Positions 18,843 through 36,167 of a stretch of 64,000 nt of DNA are shown piece by piece. The translations under genes were made by a program, and so were the position numbers. The notes beneath the pieces are model-generated. The model worked only from the letters and a program-made list of their open reading frames with translations. It searched no databases and was not told the DNA's origin. Origin of the DNA: Methanoplanus endosymbiosus (GTDB lineage Archaea; Halobacteriota; Methanomicrobia; Methanomicrobiales; Methanomicrobiaceae); NCBI RefSeq assembly GCF_024662215.1, contig NZ_CP096115.1:2108001-2172000 (forward strand), in the 5' to 3' direction. Numbering within the stretch: the first letter of the stretch is position 1; every line of letters starts with the position of its first letter.

Positions 18843-19804
18843 GGGATTGCCTGCCTCCTTCCGAATGCTTTCAGTATGGCGGCAATCAGTGCGACCGCAG
18901 CAAGCAGATAAAATATGTAATCTATGTCAGTCTCCTCTGCCTCACGGACTATTGCCTGGTTAAGGCCTGAGTATATCTCACTAAGTGTCTCTTCATCTAC
19001 TGATCTGAAGTATCTGCCGTTCGTCTCTTCTGCGATATTTTTCAGCACCTCTTCATCCAGATTGGCATAGAGGGGATTTCCGAATGTGTCATAGTCATAT
19101 AATACAGGTTCGTCTGATCCAAGGCCGATGGTGAATACCTGAATATTCCGGTTTTCTGCAAATGATATGGCCTCCTGCGGGGTGATGCCTCCTGCATTGT
19201 TTTCACCGTCAGATAGCAGTATGACAACTTTTCTTCTGTCAGGAATGGAGTCTGCCATATCGGCTGCAAGTGCAAGACCGTCACCAATTGCTGTATTCCC
19301 GTCTTTTATGCTTACTGCCATCAGTTTTCTGCCGGTTTTTTCCTTGTCAGGGCTCAGGTAGGCAGCTGATGCGGCTCCGGAACTGAATGTCACAACCCCG
19401 GCAAAGTCCTTCTCTCCAAGGCTTTCTATCAGTGTGAGAGCAGATTCTTTTGCCACCTCAAGCCTGTCGGGTTTATAATCGGTTGCATGCATGCTCCCGG
19501 AGACATCCATTGCAAGGACAACATTTACTCCCTCTTTTTCAGTTTCAAGTGGCATATGCGGCCCTGCAAGTCCGATAAATATAAGTCCGGATGCCAGCAG
19601 GAGGAGAATAAGTACAGTATTTTTCGGGCCGAAATACTTCGATGCCGGATTTGTATCCCTTGCCATTGCTGCCTTTGCAAAGGAGAGTTTTGAAAATTCA
19701 AGTGACCTGCGCCGGCTGTGCTTTTCGTGGTATATGTAGTAATAAATCAGGCATGGTATAAGGAGCAGTCCTGCCAGAAATTCCGGGTGGTAAAATCCGG
19801 ACAT
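18839..19804 (-). CDS. VWA-domain membrane protein (BatA-like)
   Basis: This 321-residue protein has an N-terminal membrane anchor (FLAGLLLIPCLIYYYIYH and ILLLLASGLIFIGLAGP), then a von Willebrand A domain with an intact MIDAS motif DVSGSM, followed by VTFSSG and ILLSDGENNAG, and a C-terminal helix (FYLLAAVALIAAILKAFG). The layout matches BatA/aerotolerance-type proteins. Genes of this type lie with MoxR AAA ATPases and DUF58 proteins and are thought to act as metal- or folding-related chaperone systems. The adjoining DUF58 gene ends one base upstream. Confidence 0.88.
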   Translation of the reverse strand: MSGFYHPEFLAGLLLIPCLIYYYIYHEKHSRRRSLEFSKLSFAKAAMARDTNPASKYFGPKNTVLILLLLASGLIFIGLAGPHMPLETEKEGVNVVLAMDVSGSMHATDYKPDRLEVAKESALTLIESLGEKDFAGVVTFSSGAASAAYLSPDKEKTGRKLMAVSIKDGNTAIGDGLALAADMADSIPDRRKVVILLSDGENNAGGITPQEAISFAENRNIQVFTIGLGSDEPVLYDYDTFGNPLYANLDEEVLKNIAEETNGRYFRSVDEETLSEIYSGLNQAIVREAEETDIDYIFYLLAAVALIAAILKAFGRRQAIP

Positions 19805-20719
19805 TTATGCTGCTCTCCGGAAAAATGCTGAGAGTTTCAGATGAAGATCCCTGTAAGGGTCGGATGTTATAATGTTTAACTCCGGAATTCTGTTCTTTCT
19901 GAATAATTGTGAGAGATCTCTCTGGTATTCTTCTGTTATCTCCCTGTACCTCTCCCTGAAATACCTGTCAGATGTATCGATCATCATCTGTTCACCTGTT
20001 TCAGGATCTGAGATCTCCACCAGGCCAATGTCCGGCAGTTCAGTTTCATGACTGTCTGATACTCTTATTGCCTGAACGTCATGCTTCTTTCCAAGGATTG
20101 ATATGGCCTCTGAGAAATCAGGTGAGTCAAAGTCTGAGATGATTATAATATGGCTCTTCCGTTTAAGTCTTGAGAGGAGAAATTCTGCGGCATTCTTTAT
20201 GTCTGTTCTCCTGGAAGCTGTTTTATGCGAGATTATTGTGTTTATGGCCAGTGCGGAGTGTCTTCTTCCCTTGCGTGCCGGAATAAATCTCTCTATTTCA
20301 TCGGTGAATAAGAGAATGCCTGAGGCATCCCCGTCTTTTAGTAATGAGTAAATTATTGTCGCTGAGATCTCAAGGATTTTTAAGTCCTTTGAGATCTCTG
20401 TCCCGAAGGAGGAGGATGCCGAACGGTCGATCATCAGATATACTGCCCTCTCACGCTCTTCGTGGTATATTCTTACATGGGGCTTTCTGTATCTTGCAGT
20501 GACCTTCCAGTCCATTGATCTGATGTCATCGCCGTACTCGTATTCTCTTATATCTGCAAGATCGATGCCGCCTCCCCTGAATAGTGAACTGTGAATGCCC
20601 GTCTGTGTTCTCTCGGTCCGGCTGCGGCTGATTATTCTGATTCTGCTGACAATCTCCAGGCAATCTTTTACGGAATATCCGGCAAATGATGAAAAACTCT
20701 CTTCATCTTTGGAGTTCAA
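19805..20719 (-). CDS. DUF58 domain protein
   Basis: This 304-residue protein carries the DUF58 signature YGDDIRSMDWKVTARYRKP followed by a VWA-like region beginning VYLMIDRSASSSFG. It is a soluble partner of MoxR ATPases in the MoxR-DUF58-VWA clusters found in bacteria and archaea. The start overlaps the moxR stop by 4 bases. No signal peptide is visible, so it should act on the cytoplasmic side. Confidence 0.9.
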   Translation of the reverse strand: MNSKDEESFSSFAGYSVKDCLEIVSRIRIISRSRTERTQTGIHSSLFRGGGIDLADIREYEYGDDIRSMDWKVTARYRKPHVRIYHEERERAVYLMIDRSASSSFGTEISKDLKILEISATIIYSLLKDGDASGILLFTDEIERFIPARKGRRHSALAINTIISHKTASRRTDIKNAAEFLLSRLKRKSHIIIISDFDSPDFSEAISILGKKHDVQAIRVSDSHETELPDIGLVEISDPETGEQMMIDTSDRYFRERYREITEEYQRDLSQLFRKNRIPELNIITSDPYRDLHLKLSAFFRRAA

Positions 20720-21735
20720 GGGATCTTCACCTTTAAGAGAATCTCATCAATTATCTCTTCTGTACTGATCCCGTCTGCTTCGGCCTTATAATTCAGGATT
20801 ATTCTGTGTCTCAGAACCGGACGGGCCATCTCCCTTAGATCGTCCGGGATGACATAATCCCTCTTCTCCATCATTGCCTTTGCCTTTGCGGATAATATCA
20901 GACTTATTGATGCCCTCGGTGATGCCCCGAATTCGATATAGTCTTTATGCGTTATTCCGTATTTTTCCGGGTGCCTTGTTGAATCAACGATCTCCGCTGC
21001 GTAATTTTCAACAGGAGAACCGCAGTATATCTTTCTTATTTCTGACTGTATCTCCAGAATGCCGCTGTTATCTATTATTTTTTCCGGGGACGGGCTGATG
21101 CCGCCTGTAAAATTCCTGATAATCTGAATCTCTTCCTCTTTTGACGGATAGTTCATCATCAGCTTGAGCATAAATCTGTCAGTCTGCGCCTCAGGCAGCG
21201 GGTATGTGCCTTCTGATTCTATTGGGTTTTGTGTTGCAAGGACAAAAAAAGGCGGAGTTATGCCGTGCCTGTCGCCCTGTATTGTAACCTGCTTCTCCTG
21301 CATCGCTTCAAGAAGTGCGGACTGGACCTTTGGCGGGGCACGGTTTATCTCATCGGCAAGTATTATGTTTGAGAATACCGGCCCTTTTACCGTTTCAAAG
21401 GATGACTTCTCAAATCTGTATATTTTTGTGCCTGTGATGTCAGCCGGAAGAAGGTCTGGTGTAAACTGTATTCTGCTGAAATTGCAGCCTGTACATTCGG
21501 AGAGTGTCTTTACAAGCAGTGTCTTTGCAATGCCGGGAACTCCCTCCAAAAGGACGTGGCCCCCTGCTGCAAAGGCTATTATTAATTCCCGGATTGCACT
21601 CTCGTGTCCGATTATTACTTTTTTTATCTCTGATTCGAGGAGGAGAAGTTTCTCAGAATAGCTGTCCGGAGATTTATCCGTGATGTTTTCATCTATCTTT
21701 GGCCTTTTATGTTTATCTTCCGGCATTAAATTCAC
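20716..21735 (-). CDS. moxR: MoxR family AAA+ ATPase
   Basis: This protein of about 339 residues has Walker A GVPGIAKTLL, Walker B ILADEINRAPPKVQSALLEAMQE, sensor ATQNPIESEGTYPLPEAQTDRF, and the C-terminal lid region beginning GASPRASISLILSAKA. MoxR ATPases are chaperones that assemble or insert metal cofactors into partner complexes. Here it heads a four-gene operon next to Mo cofactor genes, which fits but does not prove a metal-insertion role. The start is GTG 21735 or ATG 21726. Confidence 0.93.
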   Translation of the reverse strand: MNLMPEDKHKRPKIDENITDKSPDSYSEKLLLLESEIKKVIIGHESAIRELIIAFAAGGHVLLEGVPGIAKTLLVKTLSECTGCNFSRIQFTPDLLPADITGTKIYRFEKSSFETVKGPVFSNIILADEINRAPPKVQSALLEAMQEKQVTIQGDRHGITPPFFVLATQNPIESEGTYPLPEAQTDRFMLKLMMNYPSKEEEIQIIRNFTGGISPSPEKIIDNSGILEIQSEIRKIYCGSPVENYAAEIVDSTRHPEKYGITHKDYIEFGASPRASISLILSAKAKAMMEKRDYVIPDDLREMARPVLRHRIILNYKAEADGISTEEIIDEILLKVKIP

Positions 21736-21948
21736 AGATAAGTTATTGAAGTTAAATATTTATGAAATTATCATGTCCTGTGGCAGGATCTGATTTATGT
21801 TTGGCACCATGTTGTAAATGTAGTTAATTTAACTCAAAAATAAATTCTGACATTAAATGTGAGGATTTATATGGTTTCTGAAATAGAGAGTTATTGGTTA
21901 TTTCAAAATTATTTATATCTCATACTTGTTTAACTTCGGTTGGTTCTC
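21736..21948. promoter_or_regulatory. Divergent promoter region of moxR and the DUF3344-ECF operon
   Basis: It contains a palindrome AGTTAA-T-TTAACT (21822-21834). The longer motif GTTGTAAAT, three bases, GTTAATTTAA (21811-21832) recurs with only the three central bases changed at 40642-40663, upstream of modA. A TATA box TTTATAT (21912-21918) sits about 26 bases before an expected start near 21941, implying a leader of only a few bases ahead of ATG 21949. Which divergent gene the palindrome controls is not decided by position. Confidence 0.55.
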
Positions 21949-24900
21949 ATGGTTTCTGAAAGATTTAATTCGTTTATTCCGGTACTAAAAATTCTGGCTG
22001 TAATATTTATATTGTCTATATCTGTTCAGTCAGTGGGGGCGAAGAGTGCCTCTCTGCCTGATTATAACAATCTGTATATTCAGACTGCAAATGATCCCCG
22101 CTTTGATGACTGGGGCAACGGGACATACTGGTTTTGGTTCCCTGAAAATGCGGGCCTTAATACCCTGCATATTACTGATGATTATACTGACTCCTACGGG
22201 CAGGTTACCCGGACTGCGGAGATGTCAGGATCTTTTTATATCACAGATACGGGGGGGATGAATTATAAAGATGACATTCTTCTTCTTCTGGCTGTAAATG
22301 GTTCTGTAAGTGATAATTTCTCAGTAAATCTCAGATGCAACGGTTTACAGTGGACACCCAATTCAACCGGACATATTCCTCCTGTAGAGAGCGAGGTCAC
22401 TTATGTGAAGGACTGTCTGAATGCAGACTTTAATAAGGATAATTTCTCCGTTTATGGTGGAAATAACGTAAAGCAGAACTGGAAACTTTACAATTCCTCC
22501 GATTATCCGCTTTACTACGGGCAGGATGTTTCAGATGCCGGCAATTCATTTAAGCTGATGTTCATTGATCTGAATGCCGGAGTTTTAAATGCTCAGAAAC
22601 TTGGTTATACTTCACTTAAGAACAGTGGTTCACTGAAGGTCAGTTATGAATTCAGCAATCTTGATGACTGTTATGCAGCATTCAATGTCTATGCCTACGC
22701 AAAGATGCCTGAGCTTGACACCCGCAGTGTGGATAAGACTGTGCAGTGGACCAACAGGCTCAATGATGAGTCCGGAAGATCAGTCAGCGGATATTCGGTC
22801 TGGTCCCTCTTTGTTCCTAAACTGACTTCTGTAACTGTTTCTCCGGAATCATCGGTGGTTGAACCTGCATCTGGCCTTCAGATGACTGCAAAGGGTCTGG
22901 ACCAGGGCGGCAATGAGATTCCGGGTGTAATATTTGACTGGCAGTCTGATGATGCCACTGTAGGATCTGTAAATTCAGACGGCCTCTTTACGGCAGTCAG
23001 CCGGGGTATATGCAATGTAACCGCATCAAACGGAAGCATAACCGGGAAGAGCCGGATCGTTGTCTCTCCGGCCGTATCTCCCCTTTACGTTGCTGGTGAC
23101 GGAAGCGGCAATTATACAGCAATATCGGATGCAGTAACCTTTGCCCACGCAGGAACTGAAATTATTGTAAGAGACGGCATATACACAGAGAGTGTGGATA
23201 TTCCAAGAACTCTCTTTATACGTTCTGAAAACGGGCCGGATAAAACAGTTCTCGATCTATCGGGACTTCCGGCAAATACTGACGGATTTGTATTCAATGC
23301 AGATTCTGTAAATGTTTCCGGCTTTAATATAACAGGTGCGTCCGGTGACGGAACCACAGGCGGTTTTGCAGTAAGGTTCAATTCAGCATCTGACAGTATC
23401 CTGCATAATAATGTGATCTCCGGAAATTCAGACGGAATATATTTCAATTCCGGAGATAACAATACAGTTTCCGGTAATGTTATCAGCTGCCCGGAGTCTG
23501 CTGATCACTATGCCCTTTCTATCAAGAAAAATTCCGGTGCGAATAAAATTTTCCGCAATTCCTTTTTATCCGGAAATCTGAAGAAAGCAGGGCAGTCGTC
23601 AGGAAATCTCTGGAATACACAGGATATATGGCAGTACACCTATTCGGACGGTTCTGAAGTCTATCAGGGCAGTTCAAAGGTGGGAAATTTCTGGAAAGGT
23701 TATGCCGGTGTTTCCGGGGATAAGCCCGGTATCGGTTCCTCTGCATATGAAATTCCTGATGTCGGAACTGACAGCTATCCGCTAATTTCACCGGTCTGCA
23801 ACTATACATTCGGTTCTTCAATTCCGGCAGGGGATACATTCTATGTCGGCCCTGATGAGGATTTCAGGACGATTCAGTCGGCGGTCGATGCCGCAAATCC
23901 GGGTTACAGGGTCATTGTCAGGGACGGGACATACTATGAATCGGTCAGTATCCGCAAAAACCTGACAGTCCGCTCTGAGAACGGTGCCGGAGCAGTGACA
24001 GTTCAGTCTGCCGGTTACAGGGGATTTTTCCTGAATGCAGATGGGATTCTGCTTGACGGGTTTACGGTTTCAAATGTTTCAGATGAATCGGATTCCGGCG
24101 GTATTTTCCTGTATAATGCCTCAGACTGCACAGTTACCAACAATTCGGTCGGTGGTGACGGTGTCGGTATTGTTATAGACGGAGATTCGGACAGGAATCT
24201 TATATCCTTCAATACAGTCAGCCTGAACTCCGATAAGAAGAGGATGTTCTCGGTAAAATCTGCCGAATGCGGGGATAACCGGGTATGTGAAAACACTTTC
24301 TCAAAAGGAAAGGGGCCAAAGGATGAGGGTTCCGGAAATCTCTACAACACCACTGATGTCGTAAAGAATTATGTCTATAAAGGACGGCAGAGTTCCTCCT
24401 TCCTTGGCAATTACTGGACTGGTGCGGATAAGACTGATTCTGACGGAAACGGCATCGCCGACAGTCCTTATTCAGACGGTGTAACTGATAATTACCCGCT
24501 TGTATCTGAATTCAGCAGTTATTATCTGAACGGTGATTATAACGGAGATGTTACTGAAGACGTTCCGCTCAACCCTCCGGAGTGCACATTCATTGGTGTT
24601 CCCGGTTCACAGTCTGTGGTAGTTGACAACAGTTCAGGACATGCCACAGTATCAGGCAACAGCATAAGGCTTTCAGAGAACGGCTTTGATATAATCATAA
24701 ACACAGTCAATCCTCCGGGTGGAAACATCGGCTCGATAACGGGTGATATAAGTTCGGTTGAGATTGTTACGTCAGAGATTAGAACTAATTTCAACAGTAC
24801 AGGTGCAGCGGGAGGTTCTGTATCAGTGAACCTGACCGGACTTTCTCCGGGATCTGAAATAAACTCCTCTGTAAACAGAACTGTTTCGGCAGGTGATTTA

Positions 24901-25938
24901 TCCGTATTCTCATCCATTGTCTCTGCCGGCGGACTAAATCCCGGAGATATTGCATTTACACTTCGTATTGTAAAATCAGCAGGATTTGATGGTCTTGTAA
25001 ACAATGCAAATGTAACTATGAGAATAGGTTCCGGGTGGGTTGATGCACATGGCGGACCTTCAGCAGTCCGCATTTTAAGAATTGCTGACAGCGGTGACGG
25101 CCAGGTGCTTTCGACAACCTTTACAGGTCCGGTTAATGGTGTTTACACCTTTTACGGCTACAGCCCGTCCGGTCTTTCACTCTTCGGCCTGTCATCCGTC
25201 TCTGCTCCCACGCCATCAGGAGATACAGGTTCATCAGGCAGCAGCGGCGGTGGTGGATCAAGTTCAGTCGGAGTTGTATTTAAGAAGGGAGTAACTGCCG
25301 GAGAGGAAGTTGATTTCATAATTGACGAGACGGCTATATCTGAGATCTCCGTTGCTGCAAAAGTTGATATAAAGGAGATTATGCTCACCGCAGAAAAGGG
25401 CAGGATGCCTTCAGGAGCAGTGAAGCCGTCCGGAGATGTTTACCAGTATATCAGCGTAACGCTTTACAAGGCAGATCCGTCAGAGATTGAGAGAACAACT
25501 CTCAGTTTTGCCGTTGATAAGAGTGCTTTTACAGGCGGATATGATCCTGAACTGACTGAGCTTGTTTATTATAATGCTGATGAAGAGTCATGGCAGAGCC
25601 TCTCCACTGTTTATGATGGTGAGAGAGGCAGTTCATATGAATTCTTCGCTGACAGTGCCTCGCTTGGGAACTTTGCAATAGTTCTGCATAAGGGTGATGC
25701 CTCTGCCGGAGAGAAAGTTCCGGCTGAGACTGTAAAATCAGGTCTAACAGAATCAGAACAGTCATCCGGTGATGGTAACTCTGTTTCTGAAAAAGAGAAT
25801 AAAGAAATTCCTGCCAGACCATCAGGTCTTCTCTTCGGAGGTTGGCTTTCGGTAATTGGTGCAGTCTGTGTGACTGCACTCATATCATTTGCAGCATTAA
25901 GAAGAAGAGAATATGAAAATACCGGCAGAAGGAAGTAA
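21949..25938 (+). CDS. Large cell-surface protein: DUF3344, Big-like, two NosD-type beta-helices, PGF-pre-PGF domain, C-terminal anchor
   Basis: The 1329-residue secreted protein has a signal sequence (IPVLKILAVIFILSISVQSV), a DUF3344 region (about 35-285; AGLNTLHIT, SGSFYITDTGG, YGQDVSD), and a Big_2-like domain (about 290-375; ASGLQMTAKGLDQGGNEIPG, NVTASNGSITG). Two right-handed beta-helix NosD-like blocks follow, each opening with a DGIY/DGTY-ES repeat (about 380-615 and 620-860). A PGF-pre-PGF-type domain (about 1110-1240) precedes a C-terminal helix (GGWLSVIGAVCVTALISFAA) and an Arg/Lys tail. It is probably an S-layer-associated or envelope-anchored binding protein. I chose ATG 21949 over TTG 21940. 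It is the first gene of the operon leading to the ECF importer, 24 bases before the next gene. Confidence 0.88.
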   Translation: MVSERFNSFIPVLKILAVIFILSISVQSVGAKSASLPDYNNLYIQTANDPRFDDWGNGTYWFWFPENAGLNTLHITDDYTDSYGQVTRTAEMSGSFYITDTGGMNYKDDILLLLAVNGSVSDNFSVNLRCNGLQWTPNSTGHIPPVESEVTYVKDCLNADFNKDNFSVYGGNNVKQNWKLYNSSDYPLYYGQDVSDAGNSFKLMFIDLNAGVLNAQKLGYTSLKNSGSLKVSYEFSNLDDCYAAFNVYAYAKMPELDTRSVDKTVQWTNRLNDESGRSVSGYSVWSLFVPKLTSVTVSPESSVVEPASGLQMTAKGLDQGGNEIPGVIFDWQSDDATVGSVNSDGLFTAVSRGICNVTASNGSITGKSRIVVSPAVSPLYVAGDGSGNYTAISDAVTFAHAGTEIIVRDGIYTESVDIPRTLFIRSENGPDKTVLDLSGLPANTDGFVFNADSVNVSGFNITGASGDGTTGGFAVRFNSASDSILHNNVISGNSDGIYFNSGDNNTVSGNVISCPESADHYALSIKKNSGANKIFRNSFLSGNLKKAGQSSGNLWNTQDIWQYTYSDGSEVYQGSSKVGNFWKGYAGVSGDKPGIGSSAYEIPDVGTDSYPLISPVCNYTFGSSIPAGDTFYVGPDEDFRTIQSAVDAANPGYRVIVRDGTYYESVSIRKNLTVRSENGAGAVTVQSAGYRGFFLNADGILLDGFTVSNVSDESDSGGIFLYNASDCTVTNNSVGGDGVGIVIDGDSDRNLISFNTVSLNSDKKRMFSVKSAECGDNRVCENTFSKGKGPKDEGSGNLYNTTDVVKNYVYKGRQSSSFLGNYWTGADKTDSDGNGIADSPYSDGVTDNYPLVSEFSSYYLNGDYNGDVTEDVPLNPPECTFIGVPGSQSVVVDNSSGHATVSGNSIRLSENGFDIIINTVNPPGGNIGSITGDISSVEIVTSEIRTNFNSTGAAGGSVSVNLTGLSPGSEINSSVNRTVSAGDLSVFSSIVSAGGLNPGDIAFTLRIVKSAGFDGLVNNANVTMRIGSGWVDAHGGPSAVRILRIADSGDGQVLSTTFTGPVNGVYTFYGYSPSGLSLFGLSSVSAPTPSGDTGSSGSSGGGGSSSVGVVFKKGVTAGEEVDFIIDETAISEISVAAKVDIKEIMLTAEKGRMPSGAVKPSGDVYQYISVTLYKADPSEIERTTLSFAVDKSAFTGGYDPELTELVYYNADEESWQSLSTVYDGERGSSYEFFADSASLGNFAIVLHKGDASAGEKVPAETVKSGLTESEQSSGDGNSVSEKENKEIPARPSGLLFGGWLSVIGAVCVTALISFAALRRREYENTGRRK

Positions 25939-25962
25939 AAAGATTATTTGGAGATAGTATAA

Positions 25963-26667
25963 ATGAAAATTTTTGTTGCTATGGATGACACTGACAATCT
26001 GAATTCACGCGGTACAGGAAAACTTGCAAGGGATACTGCGGCAGCGATTATGAAGGAGTTTCATGTGGACGGGATAACCCGGCATCAGCTCTTTGTACAT
26101 GAGGATATTCCATTTACATCGCATAACAGCTGTGCTGTGATTCATGTTGAGGCACGTGAGACGGATGACAAGGAGTGGCTCTTTGAGACTGCAAAAGAGT
26201 GCATGCTCAATGATTTTGTTGAGGGGAGCGATCCCGGTCTTGCAGTGGCATGTGCTGATGAGGTCATCCCGCCGCTGATCGCTTTTGGCAGGGATGCACA
26301 GAGGGTTGTCTTAAACCAGGAGAAGGCAAGGGGTATTGCAAAAAATCTCGGCATTCGTCTTGAGGGGCTTGGCGGTACTGAAGACGGTGTCATCGGGACA
26401 ATGGCCGGGCTTGGACTTGCAAAAGGCGGCAATGACGGCAGGTACCTGTTGTGTGGTGGTGTAAGGGATATGACCGGACCGGCTGATGTTGACAGTCTCA
26501 TTGAAGCAGGAATTGATGCTGTATTTAACATTCACGGAGGGGAAGTGAAGGAAGGCAGGATCATTATTGAGGAAGGAAAATCTGCAAAGCCCTGTCCTGT
26601 TGATGGCCGGAAAATCCTCTTTGTGGAGGATATAGACGGTAAGTATCACGCTGTTAAGAGAGGATGA
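25963..26667 (+). CDS. TiaS-like DDTDN protein (short form)
   Basis: The 234 residues open with VAMDDTDNLNSRGTGKLA, the ATP-binding DDTD motif of the TiaS (tRNA-Ile2 agmatinylcytidine synthetase) N-terminal domain. They continue with GSDPGLAVAC and GLGGTEDGVIGTMAGLGLA, which match the TiaS middle region. Full TiaS is about 420 residues with OB and zinc domains; these are absent, so this is a stand-alone core with a different job or a paralogue. The ATG lies 24 bases after the surface-protein gene, with a weak GGAG upstream, and its stop overlaps the next start (ATGA). Its presence in a transporter operon is unexplained. Confidence 0.75.
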   Translation: MKIFVAMDDTDNLNSRGTGKLARDTAAAIMKEFHVDGITRHQLFVHEDIPFTSHNSCAVIHVEARETDDKEWLFETAKECMLNDFVEGSDPGLAVACADEVIPPLIAFGRDAQRVVLNQEKARGIAKNLGIRLEGLGGTEDGVIGTMAGLGLAKGGNDGRYLLCGGVRDMTGPADVDSLIEAGIDAVFNIHGGEVKEGRIIIEEGKSAKPCPVDGRKILFVEDIDGKYHAVKRG

Positions 26668-27479
26668 CCGGGACAGAGATATTCAGGAGAAGAGTCGGAA
26701 TCGCCTTTGTGGTTCTGATTCTCTTTGCCGGATCTATGTTTGCCCTTCAGGTCGGCGGTGAGGAGTGGGTAAAGGGTATAAGCCCTGATAAGATAACCCC
26801 TCTTTCTGATGCCGGGATGAAGGAGACCTTTTACCGGAGCGATTTTAATTACGGGCCGCAGGAGTGGAGGCCGTATAAGACTCCGCTGAATATCTCAAAT
26901 ACCCCTTATGGGGAGAATGAATGGTACCTGATGTTTGTAAAGGCCAATGCAACACCATACGGCGGCAACCCATCCTTTCACAGGAGGGGGAATGTGCTTG
27001 TGAATTATTCATTTGAAAACCTTGCCGGAACGGCGGCTTTTCATGTTATCGGTTTTGATGTAACTGCGAAATGCAGGACAAATCAGCAGGACGGCTATGG
27101 CTCCTCTTCGTATTATGTTACCGGAAGTTCTGCTGCCGGCACTTCTCTTCCGGAATCTTCCCCGATGAGTTCATGGAATAATGTGGCTGTTCTTCCTCCG
27201 GGTGAGTATGATACTGATGAGGGTGTGGAGGAGTATTACTATTTCATATATTTTGATCCTCTTTCAGGTGGTGCCGGTTCTCTTCACATTACCGATGAGA
27301 ATACTCAGGAGAGGATAAAGGGTGGAGTTATTGAGACTACAGAGCAGTCCGGAAGTTTTTATGTTACCCATACGGGAGGCAGTCTTGTTGAGGATCTGCT
27401 TATTGTCGTCTGTGTCAGTGAGGTGCAGCCTGATGATTTCAGGCTTGATATTGAGACCTCTTTTGTGAGGAGGGAATGA
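26664..27479 (+). CDS. DUF3344-type membrane-anchored surface protein with permuted halves
   Basis: This 271-residue protein has an N-terminal membrane anchor (VGIAFVVLILFAGSMFALQ) and an extracellular domain. It contains the same two half-motifs as the neighbouring DUF3344 proteins but in the opposite order. The FNYGPQEW...YLMFVKANA...NYSFENLAGTAAFHVIGF half comes first, and the GAGSLHIT...SGSFYVTHTGG...PDDFRLDI half comes last. Both ends overlap neighbours by four bases, so it is tightly coupled to the TiaS-like gene and the ECF S-component gene. A ligand-binding or capture role at the cell surface is inference. Confidence 0.75.
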   Translation: MTGTEIFRRRVGIAFVVLILFAGSMFALQVGGEEWVKGISPDKITPLSDAGMKETFYRSDFNYGPQEWRPYKTPLNISNTPYGENEWYLMFVKANATPYGGNPSFHRRGNVLVNYSFENLAGTAAFHVIGFDVTAKCRTNQQDGYGSSSYYVTGSSAAGTSLPESSPMSSWNNVAVLPPGEYDTDEGVEEYYYFIYFDPLSGGAGSLHITDENTQERIKGGVIETTEQSGSFYVTHTGGSLVEDLLIVVCVSEVQPDDFRLDIETSFVRRE

Positions 27480-28042
27480 ATTTGCGTATTGAGAAGTACT
27501 TTTCACTGAACGAAATATTGCTGCTGACTCTTTGTGGTGCCCTGATATTTGTCTTAAAAGTTATTTTTAAGCTGCCGATTCACCTGCCCGGTCATTCCGG
27601 TGCATTCTGGGTAATTCCTCTGATAATCGGAGTATCATTTGTTAAAAAACCCGGTTCAGGACTCTACATAGGACTTGTATCCGGCCTTCTGGCTTCTTTT
27701 TTTGGAATAGGGGCACTTCATGTTTTTGATTTAGTAAAATACCTCTCCATAGGTGCAGCAACTGATCTGTTCGCGGTTTTATTTGCTTACAGATTTGATA
27801 ATGTGGCGGTCGCAGTGATTACGGGTATTTTTGCAAATGTAATTAAAATGCTTGTAAATTATTCCATTCAGCTGGTTCTTGGTGTACAGCCTTTCTTCAT
27901 TATACTTGGAATTGGTGTCAGTTCTGTGACGCACATAGTATTTGGTGCTATTGGCGGGTTAATATCTGCATTTATTATTCAGAGGCTCATTAGGGCAGGT
28001 CTTGTAGGTGAAAATAATGAATCATCCTCTGATTTCAGTTGA
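27476..28042 (+). CDS. ECF transporter S component (substrate-binding membrane subunit)
   Basis: This 188-residue protein has about five to six hydrophobic helices (LNEILLLTLCGALIFVLKVI, FWVIPLIIGVSF, YIGLVSGLLASFFGIGAL, AVAVITGIFANVIKML, FIILGIGVSSVTHIVFGAIG). The size and layout fit S components of energy-coupling-factor importers. It lies directly before fused ABC ATPases and an EcfT protein. The substrate is not evident: I see no clear ThiT, BioY or RibU signature. The start ATG 27476 overlaps the upstream stop; the downstream ATPase gene begins inside its 3' end. Confidence 0.8.
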   Translation: MNLRIEKYFSLNEILLLTLCGALIFVLKVIFKLPIHLPGHSGAFWVIPLIIGVSFVKKPGSGLYIGLVSGLLASFFGIGALHVFDLVKYLSIGAATDLFAVLFAYRFDNVAVAVITGIFANVIKMLVNYSIQLVLGVQPFFIILGIGVSSVTHIVFGAIGGLISAFIIQRLIRAGLVGENNESSSDFS

Positions 28043-29606
28043 GGATTTTTCATTCTCCTATAACTCCGGGTCAGTTTCCCAGAGAAAAAAAGCTCTTTGT
28101 AGTGTCAATCTTGAAATATGCAGTGGTGAAAAGGTTATCATAGCCGGATCCAGTGGTTCGGGTAAATCAACCCTAATTCAGGCATTAACCGGGATTATCC
28201 CGTGGTCGGTTAAAGGATTGATTCGTGGCAGTGTTCATGTCAGAGGGATGGATACAAAAGATTACAGCATCTCTGATATCTCATCGGTAGTCGGCTATGT
28301 ATTTCAGAATCCTGATCATCAGATTATAACAAACGATGTTGATTCAGAGATTGCTTTTGGTCCTGAACAGAAAGGTATGGATACGGCAGATATAGAATCT
28401 GAAATTGATCTGGTAACAGAGGCTCTCGGAATAAGCAACCTGAGGGGACGTGAGATTCCTGAACTTTCCTGGGGCGAAAAACAGAAAGTTGCCATAGCCT
28501 CTGTCCTTGCCCTGAAACCTGATCTTCTTCTTCTTGATGAACCACTGTCGGGACTTGACAGTAATTCAGCAGTACGCCTTCTTAAATATCTGAGTATGGT
28601 AAATGAAAAATATGGCACAGCAATAGTGGTGGTTGAGCACAGAATTGATCATCTTGACTCTTTTGCAGACAGAGCGGTTCTTCTGGAAGACGGAAAAATT
28701 GTCTCCGACATATCTGCCGGGGAATATTTTTCCGCAGAATATTCTGATAAGTACAGACCGTCCCGGAAGAGTGCTTCAGAAGAGATCATTTGCCATACAG
28801 ATATTCCGGATAATCTTTTTTACCCGGAATTATTGGGTGGTAAAAATAATCCGGGTTTAAATATCCGTAATATTAATCGTCCGATCCCGTCATTGAAGGT
28901 CAGGAATCTGTTTTATGCATATCCCGGACAGATAAAATATGTCCTTAAAGGCCTGAATGCCGATTTCTTTCCCGGAGAAGCTACTGTGATCTTTGGATCA
29001 AATGGTTCGGGTAAGAGTACTTTTGGCAGGCATCTCAACGGACTTTTAAGACCGGTGTCCGGATCAGTTATTCTGAATGGCGAAGATCTGTCAGGTTATA
29101 CTGTTGCTGAGGCGTCACGGCAGGTATCATTACTCTCTCAGCATGCGGATTATCAGCTGTTTGGAGAGACCATATGTGAGGAGGTTACATTTGGTCCCAG
29201 GAATATATACCCTGATTATGCCTGTATTGACAGAAATACAGAGGATGTTATGGAGATGCTTGATATTCTCCGTCTTGGAATGGATGCCCGTCCTTTAAAA
29301 CTGTCAGTCGGGGAGAAGCAGCGTGTTGCCATAACGGGCTGCCTCGCGACGGATACTCCGGTTGTAGTTATGGACGAACCAACCCTTGGACTTGATTTCA
29401 GTCTTAAGGAGAGGCTTGGACTGTTAATTATGTCCTTAAAAAGGCGGGGTAAAACAGTGATAGTCTTCACACATGACCGCGAATTTGGTTATTCTTTTGC
29501 GGATAAAGTCTGCATTTTCAGAGACGGGGTTTTGCACAATGTTACGGGGAACACTGATAATTCCCCGTATGGTGCTGGCTATAAAGATATGGGGGACTTT
29601 CAGTGA
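28017..29606 (+). CDS. ecfA: ECF transporter duplicated ATPase (A-A' fusion)
   Basis: This protein of about 529 residues contains two ABC ATPase domains. The first has Walker A GSSGSGKST (about 44-52), signature LSWGEKQKVAIA and LLLDEPLSGLD. The second has GSNGSGKSTFGRHL, LSVGEKQRVAITG and VVMDEPTLGLD. This is the fused EcfA-EcfA' arrangement. I prefer ATG 28017 with GGTGA at 28007-28011 over GTG 28008; either way it overlaps the S-component gene. It powers import by the S and T membrane subunits. Confidence 0.92.
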   Translation: MNHPLISVEDFSFSYNSGSVSQRKKALCSVNLEICSGEKVIIAGSSGSGKSTLIQALTGIIPWSVKGLIRGSVHVRGMDTKDYSISDISSVVGYVFQNPDHQIITNDVDSEIAFGPEQKGMDTADIESEIDLVTEALGISNLRGREIPELSWGEKQKVAIASVLALKPDLLLLDEPLSGLDSNSAVRLLKYLSMVNEKYGTAIVVVEHRIDHLDSFADRAVLLEDGKIVSDISAGEYFSAEYSDKYRPSRKSASEEIICHTDIPDNLFYPELLGGKNNPGLNIRNINRPIPSLKVRNLFYAYPGQIKYVLKGLNADFFPGEATVIFGSNGSGKSTFGRHLNGLLRPVSGSVILNGEDLSGYTVAEASRQVSLLSQHADYQLFGETICEEVTFGPRNIYPDYACIDRNTEDVMEMLDILRLGMDARPLKLSVGEKQRVAITGCLATDTPVVVMDEPTLGLDFSLKERLGLLIMSLKRRGKTVIVFTHDREFGYSFADKVCIFRDGVLHNVTGNTDNSPYGAGYKDMGDFQ

Positions 29607-30403
29607 AAAAAAAGGCGGGTGTAGCATATATTCCCGGTGACTCTGTTATCCACAGGCTTGATCCAAGGACTAAATTACTTATTATGATCTCTGTAAGTCT
29701 GACAGCTTTTCTTGTATCAGGTGTTTTTCTCATGTTGCCTGTATTTTTAACTGTACTTCTGCTGGTTTTTCTATCCGGAAATCCGGCCGGATGGGTCAGT
29801 TCAATGAAACTTATTCTCCCCCTGCTGATTTTTATAGTATTTATTGAACTGTTATTCTGTCCTGAAGATCCCGGCAGAATAATATATTCTGTGAATTTAG
29901 GACCTTTGAATGCTGTATTGAGTGAAGGCAGTATCAGTTATTCTCTGCTGCTTGGTTTAAGGGTTCTTTCAGTGACCGGAATTTCATTTTTATTTGTTCT
30001 GACTACAAAGTACAGTGATTTTGTTAAAAGTCTTCAGCTAATGAAATTTCCACCAATAATTTCATTTTCCCTTGGTTATGCCCTGAGGGCAACAACCACA
30101 CTGTCTGCTGATACCCGTGCGATAATGGATGCCCAGAGGTCAAGAGGCCTTGAATTTGACAGAAATTCATTGTTTAAAAACCGGAATAAATTACTTTCAC
30201 TATTTATTCCCATGACTGTGACAGTTTTAAACCGGTCCTCACAGGTGTCTGATGCCATGCAATGCAGGGGATATGGAGGCGGCAGTTCTGTCAGTATATA
30301 TAATCCTCCGTCTTTTGGCAGAAATGACTTTATTATCGCTGTAATTGTTGTATTTACAGAAATAATTCTGATAAATCTTTCATATTATGAGGTTCTACGA
30401 TGA
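29603..30403 (+). CDS. ecfT: ECF transporter transmembrane coupling subunit EcfT
   Basis: This 266-residue membrane protein has the conserved coupling-helix motifs AQRSRG (near 178) and QCRGYGG (near 220), which touch the ATPases in EcfT family proteins. Several hydrophobic segments precede them. The start is a GTG that overlaps the ATPase stop as GTGA; the stop overlaps the next start as ATGA. It completes an S-AA'-T importer. Confidence 0.92.
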   Translation: MKKKAGVAYIPGDSVIHRLDPRTKLLIMISVSLTAFLVSGVFLMLPVFLTVLLLVFLSGNPAGWVSSMKLILPLLIFIVFIELLFCPEDPGRIIYSVNLGPLNAVLSEGSISYSLLLGLRVLSVTGISFLFVLTTKYSDFVKSLQLMKFPPIISFSLGYALRATTTLSADTRAIMDAQRSRGLEFDRNSLFKNRNKLLSLFIPMTVTVLNRSSQVSDAMQCRGYGGGSSVSIYNPPSFGRNDFIIAVIVVFTEIILINLSYYEVLR

Positions 30404-33018
30404 CTGTTAATTTACTAAGTTATCCGGATAAAAAATTCCTGAAAAAAGCATTTTTAATTCTGTTTACGATCTCTCTGCTTGTTTCATGCACTTCTGCCGC
30501 AGATCTGCCCTCTAATCCTATTGCCGGTGCAATGCACGTAAATATCAATACCGCAAATTCGGGTGGATATTACATCAAATTCGACGGAGGCGGTTTAAAC
30601 GCATTACATATGACCACAAGTACCTCTGATTACTATGGTCAGCTTACAACCACTTCAATGCAGAGCGGAACGTTTTTCATCTCAGATACCGGCGGCAGGG
30701 GTTTTTTCAATAACATGCTGCTCATGATTGCCCTTAGAAAACCATCTGATGATGAAGAACAGATTCCTGATGACTTCAGAATTAAAATCCGTTCGAGCGG
30801 CTATAAATGGCCCTCCACAGGCGTACTGAATATGCCTCCTTCACCCGGTAACACTGAATATGTCTCCGGAGCAGTGGATCAGGCATTTACTTTGAGTTCC
30901 TTCGGCTACGGTCCTCAGAAGTGGAAACCTGCCGGGAATAACGATCCTCTGAACTATCCGATATATGGCGATCAGGATATGTCGGATTATGAGGAGTTTT
31001 ACATCTTCTTTGTGGATCTGAAAGTCGGAGCACTGGGTGAGAATTCCGGTTTTTCAGGACTGACGGACAACGGCATGGTAAAGGTCGAATACACCATTGA
31101 AAATCTGGATTCCGGCCTTGTCGCATTTAACACATATGGGTGGTGCGATGAGAACCAGGCAAATCAGGGTGCGGGAGTATCATGGACTAACAGAGTTTCA
31201 GGTGAGGGCACCAGCGGATATGTAGTAAACATTGTCGGTTCAGGCGGTGGTGAGGGAGGTTCTTCCTCCGGAAAACTTGATTACGGCTCTGACCGTTCAA
31301 GTTCATCAGAGAGCTGGAAGCCCAAAGTCGGAAACCTTAATATCTCCTCCATTCCTGAAGGGGCTAAAGTTTACCTGGACGGGGTGTATTCCGGACAGGA
31401 AACGAATGCGTCATTTGTTGATCTTCCGGCAGGGGATTATGTCATAACCCTTGAACTTGACGAATATGAGACCGCAGGGCCTGAGACCGTGACTGTCAAA
31501 AGCGGATATATCATTGAAAAGGGATATAACATGACCCGTGGATCAGGCTCATGCTTTGTCTCATCAATTCCTGACGGGGCTGACATCTTCATAGACGGTA
31601 CGGATACACTCTGGCATACCAATTCCCTGATTACAGATATAATCTCCGGAAACCATACCGTTACGGTTTACAGGGATGGTTATGAACCGCAGTCTTCCAA
31701 CGTCAGTATTAAAATGAATCAGAGATCAGAACTGAGCTTTACGTTTGGTGAGGAAGGTGCTGCACAGGAGACTTCCGGTGCATCCGGGGAAAGTCAGGGC
31801 ACCCCAGAATCAGATGCAGCACCTGCCATTTCCGTTCAGTCCGGTAAGCTTCCGGCTGAAAAAGAAGAGATAGGCAGAGAAGAGGAGGATTATGCAGATT
31901 CTCTCTCACAGGATGATGGCGGCATATTAAGCTTCATTACCGCACTCTTCGGAGGGTTCTTCTCTGCACAGCCTGATACAGCAGCTGACCAGTCTGAACC
32001 GGCAGGGCTTAAAAGTGACTCCTCAAAGGCCGATGCAGTGCATGAGGTGCCTGAAACAGCAGGGATAACAGAAATAACAGATCCGGTCACTCCTTCAGGT
32101 GAACTTCCTGGTGAGAATATATCTTCCGAAGCAACAGGAGGCCTTTATGTGACATCTTATCCGGATAATCTTGATATTATACTAAATGGTGTAAAGACAG
32201 ATTTCTCAACCCCACATTATTTTTACGGTCTGAAAGAGGGCTCGCATAAGGTGAAGGTGACTGCTTCAGATGCAGCCAAATCAGCACAGAAGACTGTATT
32301 TGTCATTGCAGGTGAGGATAGTTACGTAAAGCTTGAGCCTGAGGTTTTCACACAGAAAGTTCCGGTTACAGTTCAGTCAAAATACTTTAAAGACTCTGTC
32401 TTCCTGATTGAAGGCGAATATCCGGAGTACCCCTTCCCTTCAAAAGTAAACCTGGAGAAGAGCGGGACATTTATTACTGTGGAAAAGGACGGAGTATTTT
32501 ATACATTTAATACCGGTTATCGGGAGGAGAATTCAGCAATAAATATCGGAAATTCCGGCCTAAAGGATACTGCCGGCAGTATCACTGTGACAACAGAGCC
32601 TGATGGTGCTTCTGTTACAATAGACAGCCATAACACAGGCTTAAAAACTCCATGCACAATTGGTGGGATTACAGAAGGGCATCACACTCTTGTGGTGTCA
32701 AAAGCCGGCTATTATCCGGAAGGGGAGAATTTACGGTTCGTAAACACCGGAGATTTGAGGGATTCAGAGTATGATTTCATGCTTGATGAGTACTCATACG
32801 GCAGCCTGTTTATTGACAGCAGTCCTCCCGACAGTATGATCTATCTGAAAGGGAGTTATACCGGTGTTAAAACCCCGCATAAATTTGAATATATACCGAT
32901 TGGCAGTTATGACGTTGGGATCGTGTATAACCGCACAGTCTTTAAGGAAAGTATTGTAACTGTTGAGCCGTATGAGAAATCCGGAATAACTGTTTATAAT
33001 ACAACTCTCGATCTATAA
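30400..33018 (+). CDS. Secreted DUF3344 protein with five PEGA repeats
   Basis: The 872 residues begin with a signal peptide (FLKKAFLILFTISLLVS, CTSAA), followed by a DUF3344 region (about 40-270; GGLNALHMTTS, FISDTGG, YGPQKWKP). A Ser/Gly linker leads to two PEGA domains (about 305-440; SSIPEGAKVYLDG, SSIPDGADIFIDG), an acidic low-complexity linker (about 455-590), and three more PEGA-like domains (SYPDNLDIILNG, TEPDGASVTIDS, SSPPDSMIYLKG). PEGA domains mediate surface or scaffold contacts. A C-terminal membrane anchor is not visible, so retention may be through the N-terminus or by binding. It is the last gene of the operon, overlapping ecfT by four bases. Confidence 0.85.
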   Translation: MTVNLLSYPDKKFLKKAFLILFTISLLVSCTSAADLPSNPIAGAMHVNINTANSGGYYIKFDGGGLNALHMTTSTSDYYGQLTTTSMQSGTFFISDTGGRGFFNNMLLMIALRKPSDDEEQIPDDFRIKIRSSGYKWPSTGVLNMPPSPGNTEYVSGAVDQAFTLSSFGYGPQKWKPAGNNDPLNYPIYGDQDMSDYEEFYIFFVDLKVGALGENSGFSGLTDNGMVKVEYTIENLDSGLVAFNTYGWCDENQANQGAGVSWTNRVSGEGTSGYVVNIVGSGGGEGGSSSGKLDYGSDRSSSSESWKPKVGNLNISSIPEGAKVYLDGVYSGQETNASFVDLPAGDYVITLELDEYETAGPETVTVKSGYIIEKGYNMTRGSGSCFVSSIPDGADIFIDGTDTLWHTNSLITDIISGNHTVTVYRDGYEPQSSNVSIKMNQRSELSFTFGEEGAAQETSGASGESQGTPESDAAPAISVQSGKLPAEKEEIGREEEDYADSLSQDDGGILSFITALFGGFFSAQPDTAADQSEPAGLKSDSSKADAVHEVPETAGITEITDPVTPSGELPGENISSEATGGLYVTSYPDNLDIILNGVKTDFSTPHYFYGLKEGSHKVKVTASDAAKSAQKTVFVIAGEDSYVKLEPEVFTQKVPVTVQSKYFKDSVFLIEGEYPEYPFPSKVNLEKSGTFITVEKDGVFYTFNTGYREENSAINIGNSGLKDTAGSITVTTEPDGASVTIDSHNTGLKTPCTIGGITEGHHTLVVSKAGYYPEGENLRFVNTGDLRDSEYDFMLDEYSYGSLFIDSSPPDSMIYLKGSYTGVKTPHKFEYIPIGSYDVGIVYNRTVFKESIVTVEPYEKSGITVYNTTLDL

Positions 33019-33243: not shown

Positions 33244-33267
33244 TACTTACAGACAAATATTCAGGTG

Positions 33268-34299
33268 ATGGAGATTAAGAATTTTAAGGTTCTGGCAATT
33301 CTTCTTCTGTCTGCATTTGCATCTGTGATGCTTACAGCAGGATGTACAGGAACTGATGGTTCAGCACAGACTGCAACTCCCACTGCAACCGCAGAGCAGA
33401 CTGTGACAGCAACTCCGGCTCCGGCCGAAACTGCCCAGAAAGAGTACGCAGACAACGAACTGCTTATTGCAACCACAACAAGTCTTTATGCAACAGGTCT
33501 TCTTGATCAGCTCGCAGGAGAGTTCATGAACGATACCGGCGTTGACATTAAGATTACAGCAGTAGGCACCGGAACAGCCCTTGAATACGGGGCAAACGGT
33601 GATGTTGATCTCATCATGGTTCACGACCGTGCAAGGGAAAATGCATTTATTGAAGACGGCTCAGGCACTGACCGCAGGGTATTTGGCTACAATTATTTCG
33701 TAATCGTAGGCCCTGAGAGTGACCCTGCCGGAATTAAAGGCATGGCCCCGACAGAAGCACTTGAGACTATTCTTACAAAAGGCAGTGGAGGTGCTGAAGG
33801 TGTAAAGTTTGTCTCCCGTGGCGACAGTTCAGGAACACACGGCAAAGAGAAGGCACTCTGGTCTGTAGCAGGCTATGACTATGCCGAGTATGAACCTGTC
33901 TGGGTAAAAGAAGACTGGTATGTTGAGGCCGGCACAGGAATGGGCGGCACACTCACAATGGCAGACGAGATGGACGCTTACACTCTAACCGATATCGGGA
34001 CCTACCTTAAATATCAGGGAGACGGAACCATCAACCTTGCAGAACTTGTAAATGAAGGCGATGACCTGATTAACATCTACGGCGCTATACTTGTAAATCC
34101 GGATAAATATTCTGACACCAATGTTGAAGTCGGAAAGGACTGGGTTAACTACCTGATTACTGATGATGTTCAGGACGAAATTAAGGTATTTGGCGTAAAA
34201 GATTACGGTCAGCCTCTCTTCTTCCCTGCAATGGGCGCTTTGGATGTGCTCTCACCTTCAGGTGTAACACAGGACGAGATTTCCGCACCGCTTGCATGA
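33268..34299 (+). CDS. tupA: Tungstate ABC transporter substrate-binding protein TupA
   Basis: This protein of about 343 residues is a lipoprotein with signal and lipobox (ASVMLTAGCTG) followed by a Thr/Ala/Pro-rich linker. The TupA ligand motifs are intact: LLIATTTSLYATGLLDQL, VGTGTALEYGANGDVDLIMVH, FVSRGDSSGTHGKEKALW. TupA binds tungstate with very high affinity. ATG 33268 and GTG 33265 are both possible starts; no separate Shine-Dalgarno is present, so the transcript may be nearly leaderless. It is the first of three tup genes, followed by a terminator-like hairpin before tupB. Confidence 0.94.
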   Translation: MEIKNFKVLAILLLSAFASVMLTAGCTGTDGSAQTATPTATAEQTVTATPAPAETAQKEYADNELLIATTTSLYATGLLDQLAGEFMNDTGVDIKITAVGTGTALEYGANGDVDLIMVHDRARENAFIEDGSGTDRRVFGYNYFVIVGPESDPAGIKGMAPTEALETILTKGSGGAEGVKFVSRGDSSGTHGKEKALWSVAGYDYAEYEPVWVKEDWYVEAGTGMGGTLTMADEMDAYTLTDIGTYLKYQGDGTINLAELVNEGDDLINIYGAILVNPDKYSDTNVEVGKDWVNYLITDDVQDEIKVFGVKDYGQPLFFPAMGALDVLSPSGVTQDEISAPLA

Positions 34300-34307
34300 A
34301 CAATGAT

Positions 34308-34330
34308 TCCGGGATTCCCGGATTTTTTTT
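34308..34330 (+). terminator. Intrinsic-type terminator between tupA and tupB
   Basis: TCCGGG (34308-34313), loop ATT, CCCGGA (34317-34322), then T8 (34323-34330). It lies 9 bases after the tupA stop and 62 bases before tupB. Partial termination here would give more TupA than membrane and ATPase subunits, a common arrangement for binding-protein-dependent importers. Confidence 0.75.
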
Positions 34331-34392
34331 GTTTTTTATCAGGGACATATTAATATTCTTTAATGTTTTACTGAAATGAGAGGGTTGATATT

Positions 34393-35079
34393 ATGAATTA
34401 CATTGCTGAGGGTGTTTATCAGGCCTTTGTGATGATAATCACCCTGAATCCTGATGTTGTGGATATCACACTAAGAACTCTCACAATTACTCTCAGTGCA
34501 ACCCTTATTGCATCGGTAATCTGTATTCCTCTGGGAATTTATATTGCCTTTAATGAGTTTTATGGCCGGAAAACTCTGATCAGTGTTATCCAGACATTAT
34601 ATGCCCTGCCTACTGTGGTTGTTGGCCTTGTGATGTATATGATCCTCTCCAATAACGGGCCTCTGGGGTTTCTTGATCTTTTATTCACTTCTACAGGGGT
34701 TATGCTTGGACAGGTTGTACTGATCCTTCCGATAATTACCGGGCTTACAATATCTGCCCTCTCAAACCTTGATTCAACAATACGTGACACAATAGTCTCT
34801 CTTGGGGCAACAACAGGCCAGTTTTTCTCATCAATGATTCTTGAGGCGAGATTTGCAATAATGTCCGCCGTAATTATGGGTTTTTCACGTGCGATATCGG
34901 AAGTCGGTGCGGCAATAATGATTGGAGGCAATATAAAGGGCCACACAAGAATTCTTACAACCGCAATTACACTTGAGACCAATATAGGCAATTTTTCACT
35001 CTCGGTTGCACTTGGAATTATTCTCCTGCTTATTGCACTGACTGTCACCATGATTGTATCCAGATTTCAGCAGAGTTGA
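34393..35079 (+). CDS. tupB: Tungstate ABC transporter permease TupB
   Basis: This 228-residue integral membrane protein has the typical permease layout (VDITLRTLTITLSATLIASV, TLYALPTVVVGLVMYMIL) and a coupling loop with the EAA-type motif DTIVSLGATTGQFF. It is shorter than ModB proteins, as is usual for TupB. The preceding ATGAGAGGGTTGAT carries a possible ribosome binding site. The tupC gene starts directly at its end. Confidence 0.92.
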   Translation: MNYIAEGVYQAFVMIITLNPDVVDITLRTLTITLSATLIASVICIPLGIYIAFNEFYGRKTLISVIQTLYALPTVVVGLVMYMILSNNGPLGFLDLLFTSTGVMLGQVVLILPIITGLTISALSNLDSTIRDTIVSLGATTGQFFSSMILEARFAIMSAVIMGFSRAISEVGAAIMIGGNIKGHTRILTTAITLETNIGNFSLSVALGIILLLIALTVTMIVSRFQQS

Positions 35080-35084
35080 ACAAT

Positions 35085-36167
35085 ATGATTGAGATTGATA
35101 ATATCCATAAAAGTTTTGAGGCCAATAATGTCTTAAAAGGTGTTTATGCCGATATAAATAAGGGTGAAATATTCACAATAATCGGCCCTTCAGGGCAGGG
35201 TAAATCGACCCTTTTAAGAATTCTCAATACTCTTGAAAGGCCAACGTCCGGTCAGATTTTTTTTGACAGCAATGACCTTTTTTCCGGAAAAAAAACGCCT
35301 GTGGAAGTGAGAAGGCGTATGTCTATGGTCTTTCAGAAGACTGCTGTCTTTGATATGAATGTCTTTGACAATATTGCAATCGGGCTTAAATACCGTGGTT
35401 ACAGTAAAACTGATATCAATGAAACTGTAAGCCGGGCACTTGATGAGATTGGACTGTCAGGGTATGGCGGGAGAAGTGCCAGGACACTTTCCGGAGGGGA
35501 GATGCAGAGAGTTGCCCTTGCAAGGGCAATTGTCTCCAAACCGGATGTTCTGTATCTTGATGAACCAACGGCAAGTCTTGATCCTGTAAATACGGAAAAG
35601 ATTGAAGATCTGATCCTGCATTACAATAAGGAATACGGAACCACGATTGTCATGTCAACCCATGACATGCTTCAGGGGCAGAGGCTCTCAGACAGAATCG
35701 GTGTCATGATGGATGGCAGATTCCTCCAGATTGCAACTCCGGATGAGATATTCTCAAGGCCGGGCAATGAGAATGTTGCACGTTTTATTGGAATTAATAA
35801 TGTCTTTTACGGGACTATTAAGGAAAAGTACAGCGACGGGGTCAATGGTACCTTAAAATCCGGAAATGTGACTCTTATCGTTAAAAGTGAATTTAAATTC
35901 GGTGACAGGGTGACATTCTGCATCAGGCCTGAAGAGATCACTGTTCATAACCACAGGGCAGAACCGATAAAAGGCAGAAATATGCTCCCCGGAAAAATTG
36001 CCGGCATTCACCGGCAGGGCAGGATGATGTATGCTGATATTGATGCAGGGATAAGGATCAGCGCTATGGTTACCTGGGAGCAGTATGAGGGAAGCGGGTT
36101 TGAGGAAGGGGATGATGTTATGATCTCATTTAAACCCAGGTCGGTATTTGTTATGGGAAAAATGTGA
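35085..36167 (+). CDS. tupC: Tungstate ABC transporter ATPase TupC
   Basis: This protein of about 360 residues has Walker A GPSGQGKSTLL, signature LSGGEMQRVALA, Walker B VLYLDEPTASLD and a His-loop near MSTHDM. A C-terminal regulatory extension of about 120 residues resembles the TOBE/mop region that can bind oxyanion (RNMLPGKIAGIHRQGRMMYA). I prefer ATG 35085 just past the tupB stop; a TTG at 35076 overlapping that stop is an alternative. A separate wtp gene set follows after a gap of about 90 bases. Confidence 0.92.
   Translation: MIEIDNIHKSFEANNVLKGVYADINKGEIFTIIGPSGQGKSTLLRILNTLERPTSGQIFFDSNDLFSGKKTPVEVRRRMSMVFQKTAVFDMNVFDNIAIGLKYRGYSKTDINETVSRALDEIGLSGYGGRSARTLSGGEMQRVALARAIVSKPDVLYLDEPTASLDPVNTEKIEDLILHYNKEYGTTIVMSTHDMLQGQRLSDRIGVMMDGRFLQIATPDEIFSRPGNENVARFIGINNVFYGTIKEKYSDGVNGTLKSGNVTLIVKSEFKFGDRVTFCIRPEEITVHNHRAEPIKGRNMLPGKIAGIHRQGRMMYADIDAGIRISAMVTWEQYEGSGFEEGDDVMISFKPRSVFVMGKM

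Follow-up and report, generated by a model that had tools for sequence, protein, structure and literature searches.

The 271-residue protein encoded at 26664-27479 on the forward strand of the window is best read, from sequence comparison, as a circular permutant (Y-L) of a single all-beta domain, L-Y, for which sequence searches give no relative in Pfam or the PDB. The window is the whole stretch of DNA analyzed here, 64,000 nucleotides of Methanoplanus endosymbiosus (GCF_024662215.1, NZ_CP096115.1, positions 2,108,001-2,172,000 of the forward strand). In this reading the domain was permuted once and the Y-L form would have been retained to serve an ECF importer as an extracytoplasmic partner tethered to the membrane, with the L-Y form decorating large surface proteins.

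Gene content of the window

Seven same-strand genes span 21940-33018 of the window, the last six overlapping by 4 or 35 bases. All lie on the forward strand, in the order L-Y/NosD protein, TiaS-like protein, Y-L, S component, fused ATPase, EcfT and L-Y/PEGA protein. The first encodes a 1332-residue surface protein (21940-25938, with a start possibly at the ATG at 21949) composed of an L-Y module, Big_2, a NosD/beta-helix region and a PGF-pre-PGF domain. HMM matches place its L half at residues 47-140 (22078-22359) and its Y half at residues 154-287 (22399-22800). The Y-L gene is an ATG open reading frame whose product consists of a hydrophobic N-terminal segment (about residues 10-28), the Y half (residues 48-152, 26805-27119), a linker and the L half (residues 179-271, 27198-27476), both halves again being HMM matches. 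The Y half carries the motifs YGPQ...AFHVIG and the L half LHIT...THTGG. The last gene (30400-33018), whose start overlaps the EcfT stop, encodes an 872-residue protein in which five PEGA stretches come after an L-Y module; HMM matches locate the L half at residues 41-138 (30520-30813) and the Y half at residues 153-276 (30856-31227).

Reversed order of the two halves

The sequence-only reading had claimed that the halves of the 271-residue protein are reversed and that the domain is circularly permuted. The reversal, Y-L in this protein against L-Y in the 21940 and 30400 proteins, is borne out by BLASTP, shuffled controls and hhalign, and the permutation is supported by sequence, profiles and predicted secondary structure. 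More specifically, two-sequence BLASTP searches without composition correction align residues 164-263 of the 271-residue protein with residues 35-131 of the 21940 protein (E 6.3e-13) and residues 28-143 with 131-265 (E 3.8e-5), while in the 30400 protein residues 45-161 correspond to 152-289 (E 2e-11) and 193-266 to 57-133 (E 1.6e-9). Because the matches cross with both proteins, the order is reversed against both. Like halves score 126 and 71 in the comparison with the 21940 protein and 105 and 119 with the 30400 protein, and shuffled maxima are 37-53 (300 shuffles each); the four pairs of unlike halves score 21-37, inside the shuffled range. Each half therefore matches its like half only, and the reversed order is correct and not a product of chance.

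The same relationship is seen between family profiles built from 82 L-Y rows and 30 Y-L rows. With hhalign, columns 130-249 of the L-Y profile align to columns 18-127 of the Y-L profile (E 1.8e-25) and columns 7-107 to columns 135-236 (E 1.7e-24), a non-collinear pair of matches. When the Y-L profile is doubled, these become a single 230-column match in which columns 7-249 align to 135-366 (E 1.3e-45). No similarity between L and Y was detected by hhalign in any of the four half pairings (probability below 1%). The two forms accordingly have homologous halves in reversed order, match over their full length only when one copy is doubled and consist of halves that are not repeats of one another, which is the pattern of a circular permutation.

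Predicted structure of the domain

The AlphaFold model of L-Y (13 rows) is all-beta, with a pLDDT of 70.0 and a pTM of 0.76; the Y-L model (16 rows) is poor, with a pLDDT of 50.4 and a pTM of 0.57. When each half is aligned to its counterpart, the predicted secondary structures of the two forms agree at 85.6% of 202 aligned positions, compared with a mean of 50.3% and a maximum of 61.9% over 228 cyclic shifts, none of which reaches the observed value. Aligned with PDB structures, the L-Y model follows single beta-sandwich domains continuously from its L half to where its Y half ends, and the model thus makes it likely that both halves form one domain. A fold search with this model gave no clear match. 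The best Foldseek E-value was 4.3e-3, and the best VIA-align Z, in a comparison limited to the folds that Foldseek finds, was 6.7 to the PorA N-terminal domain, which may reflect a common arrangement only. Because no clear known fold emerges at this best Z, a ligand-binding role draws no support from a structural relative.

Relationship to DUF3344

The domain had been labeled DUF3344 from its sequence, and this label does not hold: in Pfam, the three proteins of the window show no DUF3344 match at E<=1. Among the 82 L-Y and 30 Y-L members there is likewise no match to DUF3344 (PF11824) at E<=0.1, the Pfam cut-off of 27.2 bits not being reached, and in hhalign comparisons with 15 rows of DUF3344, made with single and with doubled profiles, the best hits have probabilities of 0.3-1.7%. 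The DUF3344 model itself works in Methanomicrobiales, with true matches in 25 of 60 genomes searched, and the Methanoplanus endosymbiosus genome has its own DUF3344 located elsewhere. In two scanned proteins DUF3344 is a separate domain behind L-Y (L-Y at 52-277 with DUF3344 at 340-568, and L-Y at 43-267 with DUF3344 at 299-549). DUF3344 resembles L-Y in that both are extracellular domains on surface proteins of archaea, and it occurs in the same proteins, but it differs from both L-Y and Y-L in sequence and profile and sits after L-Y. On plasmids of Methanoperedens, one study places surface proteins with DUF3344 next to CbiMNQO and ECF transporters (PMC9674854).

A search of PDB sequences with the L-Y profile returned no hits up to E 10; with no Pfam match and no PDB profile hit, the L-Y domain belongs to no family of the libraries searched. 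Viral contigs yielded no relatives, the 29 pattern matches of one search and the single match of another including none, and one scan of genome contigs yielded 2 loci. The literature searched, which left most subscription journals out, contained no description of the L-Y domain or of Y-L. The L-Y domain defines a family missing from the Pfam copy used, and the DUF3344 label is corrected.

The Y-L gene within an ECF operon

Immediately downstream of Y-L in the window is the gene for an ECF S component, PF09819 (ABC_cobalt), at 27476-28042, overlapping the Y-L stop by 4 bases. This is followed by an ECF ATPase with two domains fused (EcfA-EcfA', 28008-29606) and an EcfT/CbiQ-type transmembrane protein (29603-30403). 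The genes for S, the fused ATPase and EcfT are thus all there, side by side, and make up an ECF transporter operon. PF09819 is matched by 22 of 23 S members and a riboflavin-type S by one member; the S profile has no convincing match in the PDB (best E 0.12).

The association of Y-L with this S component is constant. According to the S profile, 39 of 232 Methanomicrobiales genomes have the S component, and Y-L is found in the identical 39. S is the next gene downstream on the same strand at all 40 Y-L loci, within 53 nt at 39 of them and at 267 nt in one frame-broken draft copy. Among the 37 Y-L loci read, which come from 36 genomes, single-sequence search alone places S next downstream in 33, and the ATPase lies within 1 kb downstream in 36. 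The gene just upstream is TiaS-like in 34, the other three being one locus without upstream sequence and two with a longer called start. A hydrophobic N-terminal segment is present in 36 of the 37 Y-L proteins. That Y-L is always encoded beside one small-molecule importer suggests that the protein belongs specifically to this importer as one of its components.

Two of these loci call for separate comment. One genome, alone among the 39, has two Y-L/S pairs (L061 and L062), about 20 kb apart on one contig (G062:C15). In the Methanogenium cariaci JCM 10550 draft contig (L033), many homopolymer-length differences break frames, that of the Y-L gene included, in what appears to be a sequencing artefact.

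YkoEDC is a YkoE-type ECF importer with a fused ATPase and EcfT. Importers of this YkoE/ABC_cobalt type share with the present operon the PF09819 S component, followed by a fused ATPase and a CbiQ-type EcfT; the operon described here differs in adding a tethered or secreted Y-L and a TiaS-like protein, and in having an S component with no convincing PDB relative by sequence. Metal ECF systems have extracytoplasmic accessory parts, namely NikL, NikK and CbiL (DUF4198) and CbiN. Y-L resembles these in being a small protein, probably also on the outer face, that is encoded with one ECF importer; it differs in that DUF4198 is not among its Pfam matches.

The TiaS-like protein (234 residues, 25963-26667) overlaps the Y-L start by 4 bases and shows a weak match to tRNA(Ile2) agmatidine synthase TiaS over residues 1-151. 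The profile of its family gives weak TiaS matches (E 0.0032-0.0046), and the window copy matches no Pfam family. It falls below the cut-off for methanogenesis marker 11 and is kept directly ahead of Y-L. Possibly, it is an enzyme acting on the imported compound.

Distribution of L-Y proteins

L-Y proteins are found in 38 of the 39 genomes with Y-L and in only 7 of the 193 others (Fisher p 2.9e-35, kinship ignored); two of these 7 genomes are at least 95% complete. The first L begins at or before residue 75 in 73 of 88 L-Y open reading frames, some of which are cut by stretch ends, and in 43 of the 88 the final 40 residues include a hydrophobic segment. Domains found beside L-Y include PKD, Big_2, NosD, beta-propeller and CBM. 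L-Y loci are also found away from the ECF operon, in 8 fetched stretches, where the neighboring genes include neither an S component nor an EcfT of the kind seen here. Both these loci and the 7 genomes with L-Y alone weigh against the explanation preferred here.

Phylogeny and origin of the permuted form

When 156 units are put in one order, the 37 Y-L sequences form a single clan in an unrooted FastTree phylogeny (support 0.978), and the interim tree of a bootstrap run recovers the Y-L clan again, without support values. Within this clan, the sequence of one archaeon of another order in the same phylum (G257) is sister to the remaining 36, and Y-L is therefore a form present in two orders. 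L-Y or Y-L occurs in 25 of 392 genomes of a phylum sample, all but G257 belonging to Methanomicrobiales; in a second phylum sample of largely the same genomes there are 24 matches among 391, again with only G257 outside that order.

The likely route to Y-L is a duplication followed by loss of the outer halves, which would shift the chain ends from the seam between the Y end and the L start to that between the L end and the Y start. The intermediate expected from duplication is the tandem L-Y-L-Y of the L054 protein, in which two L-Y units are separated by a joint of 16 residues. Moved chain ends would allow the same fold to be tethered by another edge, and the two forms do appear to differ in this respect: L-Y mostly sits near the N-terminus of surface proteins with a long stalk behind it, whereas Y-L would be tethered at its own N-terminus. 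Potato type II inhibitors are described as natural circular permutants with tandem duplication as a route (PMC2259423), and cpRAS GTPases as natural circular permutants too (PMC2430557). Y-L is like these in being the same domain with shifted chain ends, and differs from them in the division between its two forms, the permuted one going with a single transporter and the unpermuted one with surface proteins.

Arrangement of the halves and alternative explanations

HMMs were built for L and Y and the order of halves was read in stretches from 38 genomes. The final set of 127 open reading frames with either half consists of 88 with 119 L-Y units, 37 Y-L proteins from 36 genomes, and two frames cut by the end of a fetched stretch, of which one has L alone and the other Y alone. 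Eighteen L-Y proteins are, like Y-L, shorter than 300 residues, and protein size is therefore not what decides the order. The joint within Y-L proteins, from Y to L, is 17-40 residues long (median 26).

The sequence-only reading had proposed two swappable units or a repeat unit running from one half into the next, and the family-wide arrangement speaks against both. That L and Y are independent domains able to stand in either order fits the difference between their sequences and their size of about 100 residues each, yet apart from the two end-cut frames the 127 contain only L-Y units or a lone Y-L, with no free L or Y, no L-L, no Y-Y and no mixed strings. The L-to-Y joint, moreover, is held at 6-20 residues (median 13) in all 119 units, and in the L-Y model the two halves pack together as a single unit (pTM 0.76), both being covered by the PDB alignments; swappable domains are thus very improbable. 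Still less credible is a running L-Y-L-Y repeat of which the short protein would be another register. Its best case is the L054 protein, where the Y-L profile matches across the 16-residue joint, but this is the one exception among the 31 Y-to-L gaps that separate units where a protein has more than one. The other 30 measure 51-978 residues, room for the Big_2, PKD and NosD domains found in these proteins, and 62 of the 88 L-Y open reading frames contain one unit only. The mutual dissimilarity of L and Y by hhalign counts against a repeat as well. A third possibility is that L-Y was never permuted into Y-L, both orders having been assembled separately from free L and Y genes by fission and fusion. 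Because the tree separates Y-L cleanly from L-Y, no source of Y-L within L-Y is visible, as such a history would have it; however, no free L or Y gene occurs in the loci read and the tandem form does exist, so that we consider separate assembly rather unlikely.

A more serious contender, though one we still regard as doubtful, makes Y-L a structural or adhesive protein of the cell envelope, placed in the ECF operon through co-regulation and having no part in transport. Its relatives on adhesin-like proteins with PKD, Big_2, NosD and PEGA favor such a role, as does the MoxR/DUF58/VWA cluster that is often near. Against it, Y-L and S co-occur and adjoin in 39 of 39 genomes, and their link is kept in the archaeon of another order, where no L-Y protein was detected. 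The explanation as a whole that accounts best for these observations, namely that Y-L is a permuted all-beta L-Y domain acting as a putative outer-face ECF partner and that L-Y is a module of surface proteins, is held with moderate confidence.

Functional implications

With Y-L as an ECF partner, the protein would sit on the outer face of the membrane beside S, held by its N-terminal segment, and by analogy might help to load substrate into the importer, as parts of the NikL/NikK/CbiL type do. The L-Y modules of surface proteins would probably recognize that ligand or partner too, or a related one. It is plausible that the two forms share a function, because 27 alignment columns have the same residue at a frequency of at least 75% in both forms, among them the histidine of LHIT, which is found in 37 of 37 Y-L and 95% of L-Y sequences. 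One speculative extension, which we put forward tentatively, is a relay: a nutrient in short supply would be captured by the L-Y modules of giant surface proteins and handed on to the permuted Y-L, itself docked on the importer's S component, permutation having turned the binding domain so that it can face both the outer proteins and the transporter. In such a relay Y-L would be an ECF accessory subunit of a new class, and circular permutation would have split capture from delivery.

The family offers a clean natural circular permutation in which each chain order has its own constant genomic role. If the transport link holds, it would reveal an unrecognised outer-face partner for vitamin and metal importers of a class that is widespread in methanogens, and would tie large surface proteins of obscure function to nutrient uptake.

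The surroundings of the genes, identified by eye, include several other systems. On the opposite strand of the window, 17295-21735 encodes MoxR, DUF58, VWA and 515-residue proteins, a cluster found near Y-L in many genomes, and after the operon 33265-36167 encodes what looks like a tungstate-type ABC importer (binding protein, permease and ATPase). Away from the ECF operon, three related genomes have a pair of L-Y genes near an apparent formylmethanofuran:H4MPT formyltransferase gene (L133, L134 and L139). A genome that is 99% complete and without Y-L (G119) encodes an L-Y protein at 116729-118843 of its contig (L076), near what seems to be a peptide/nickel-type ABC importer with methyltransferase genes.
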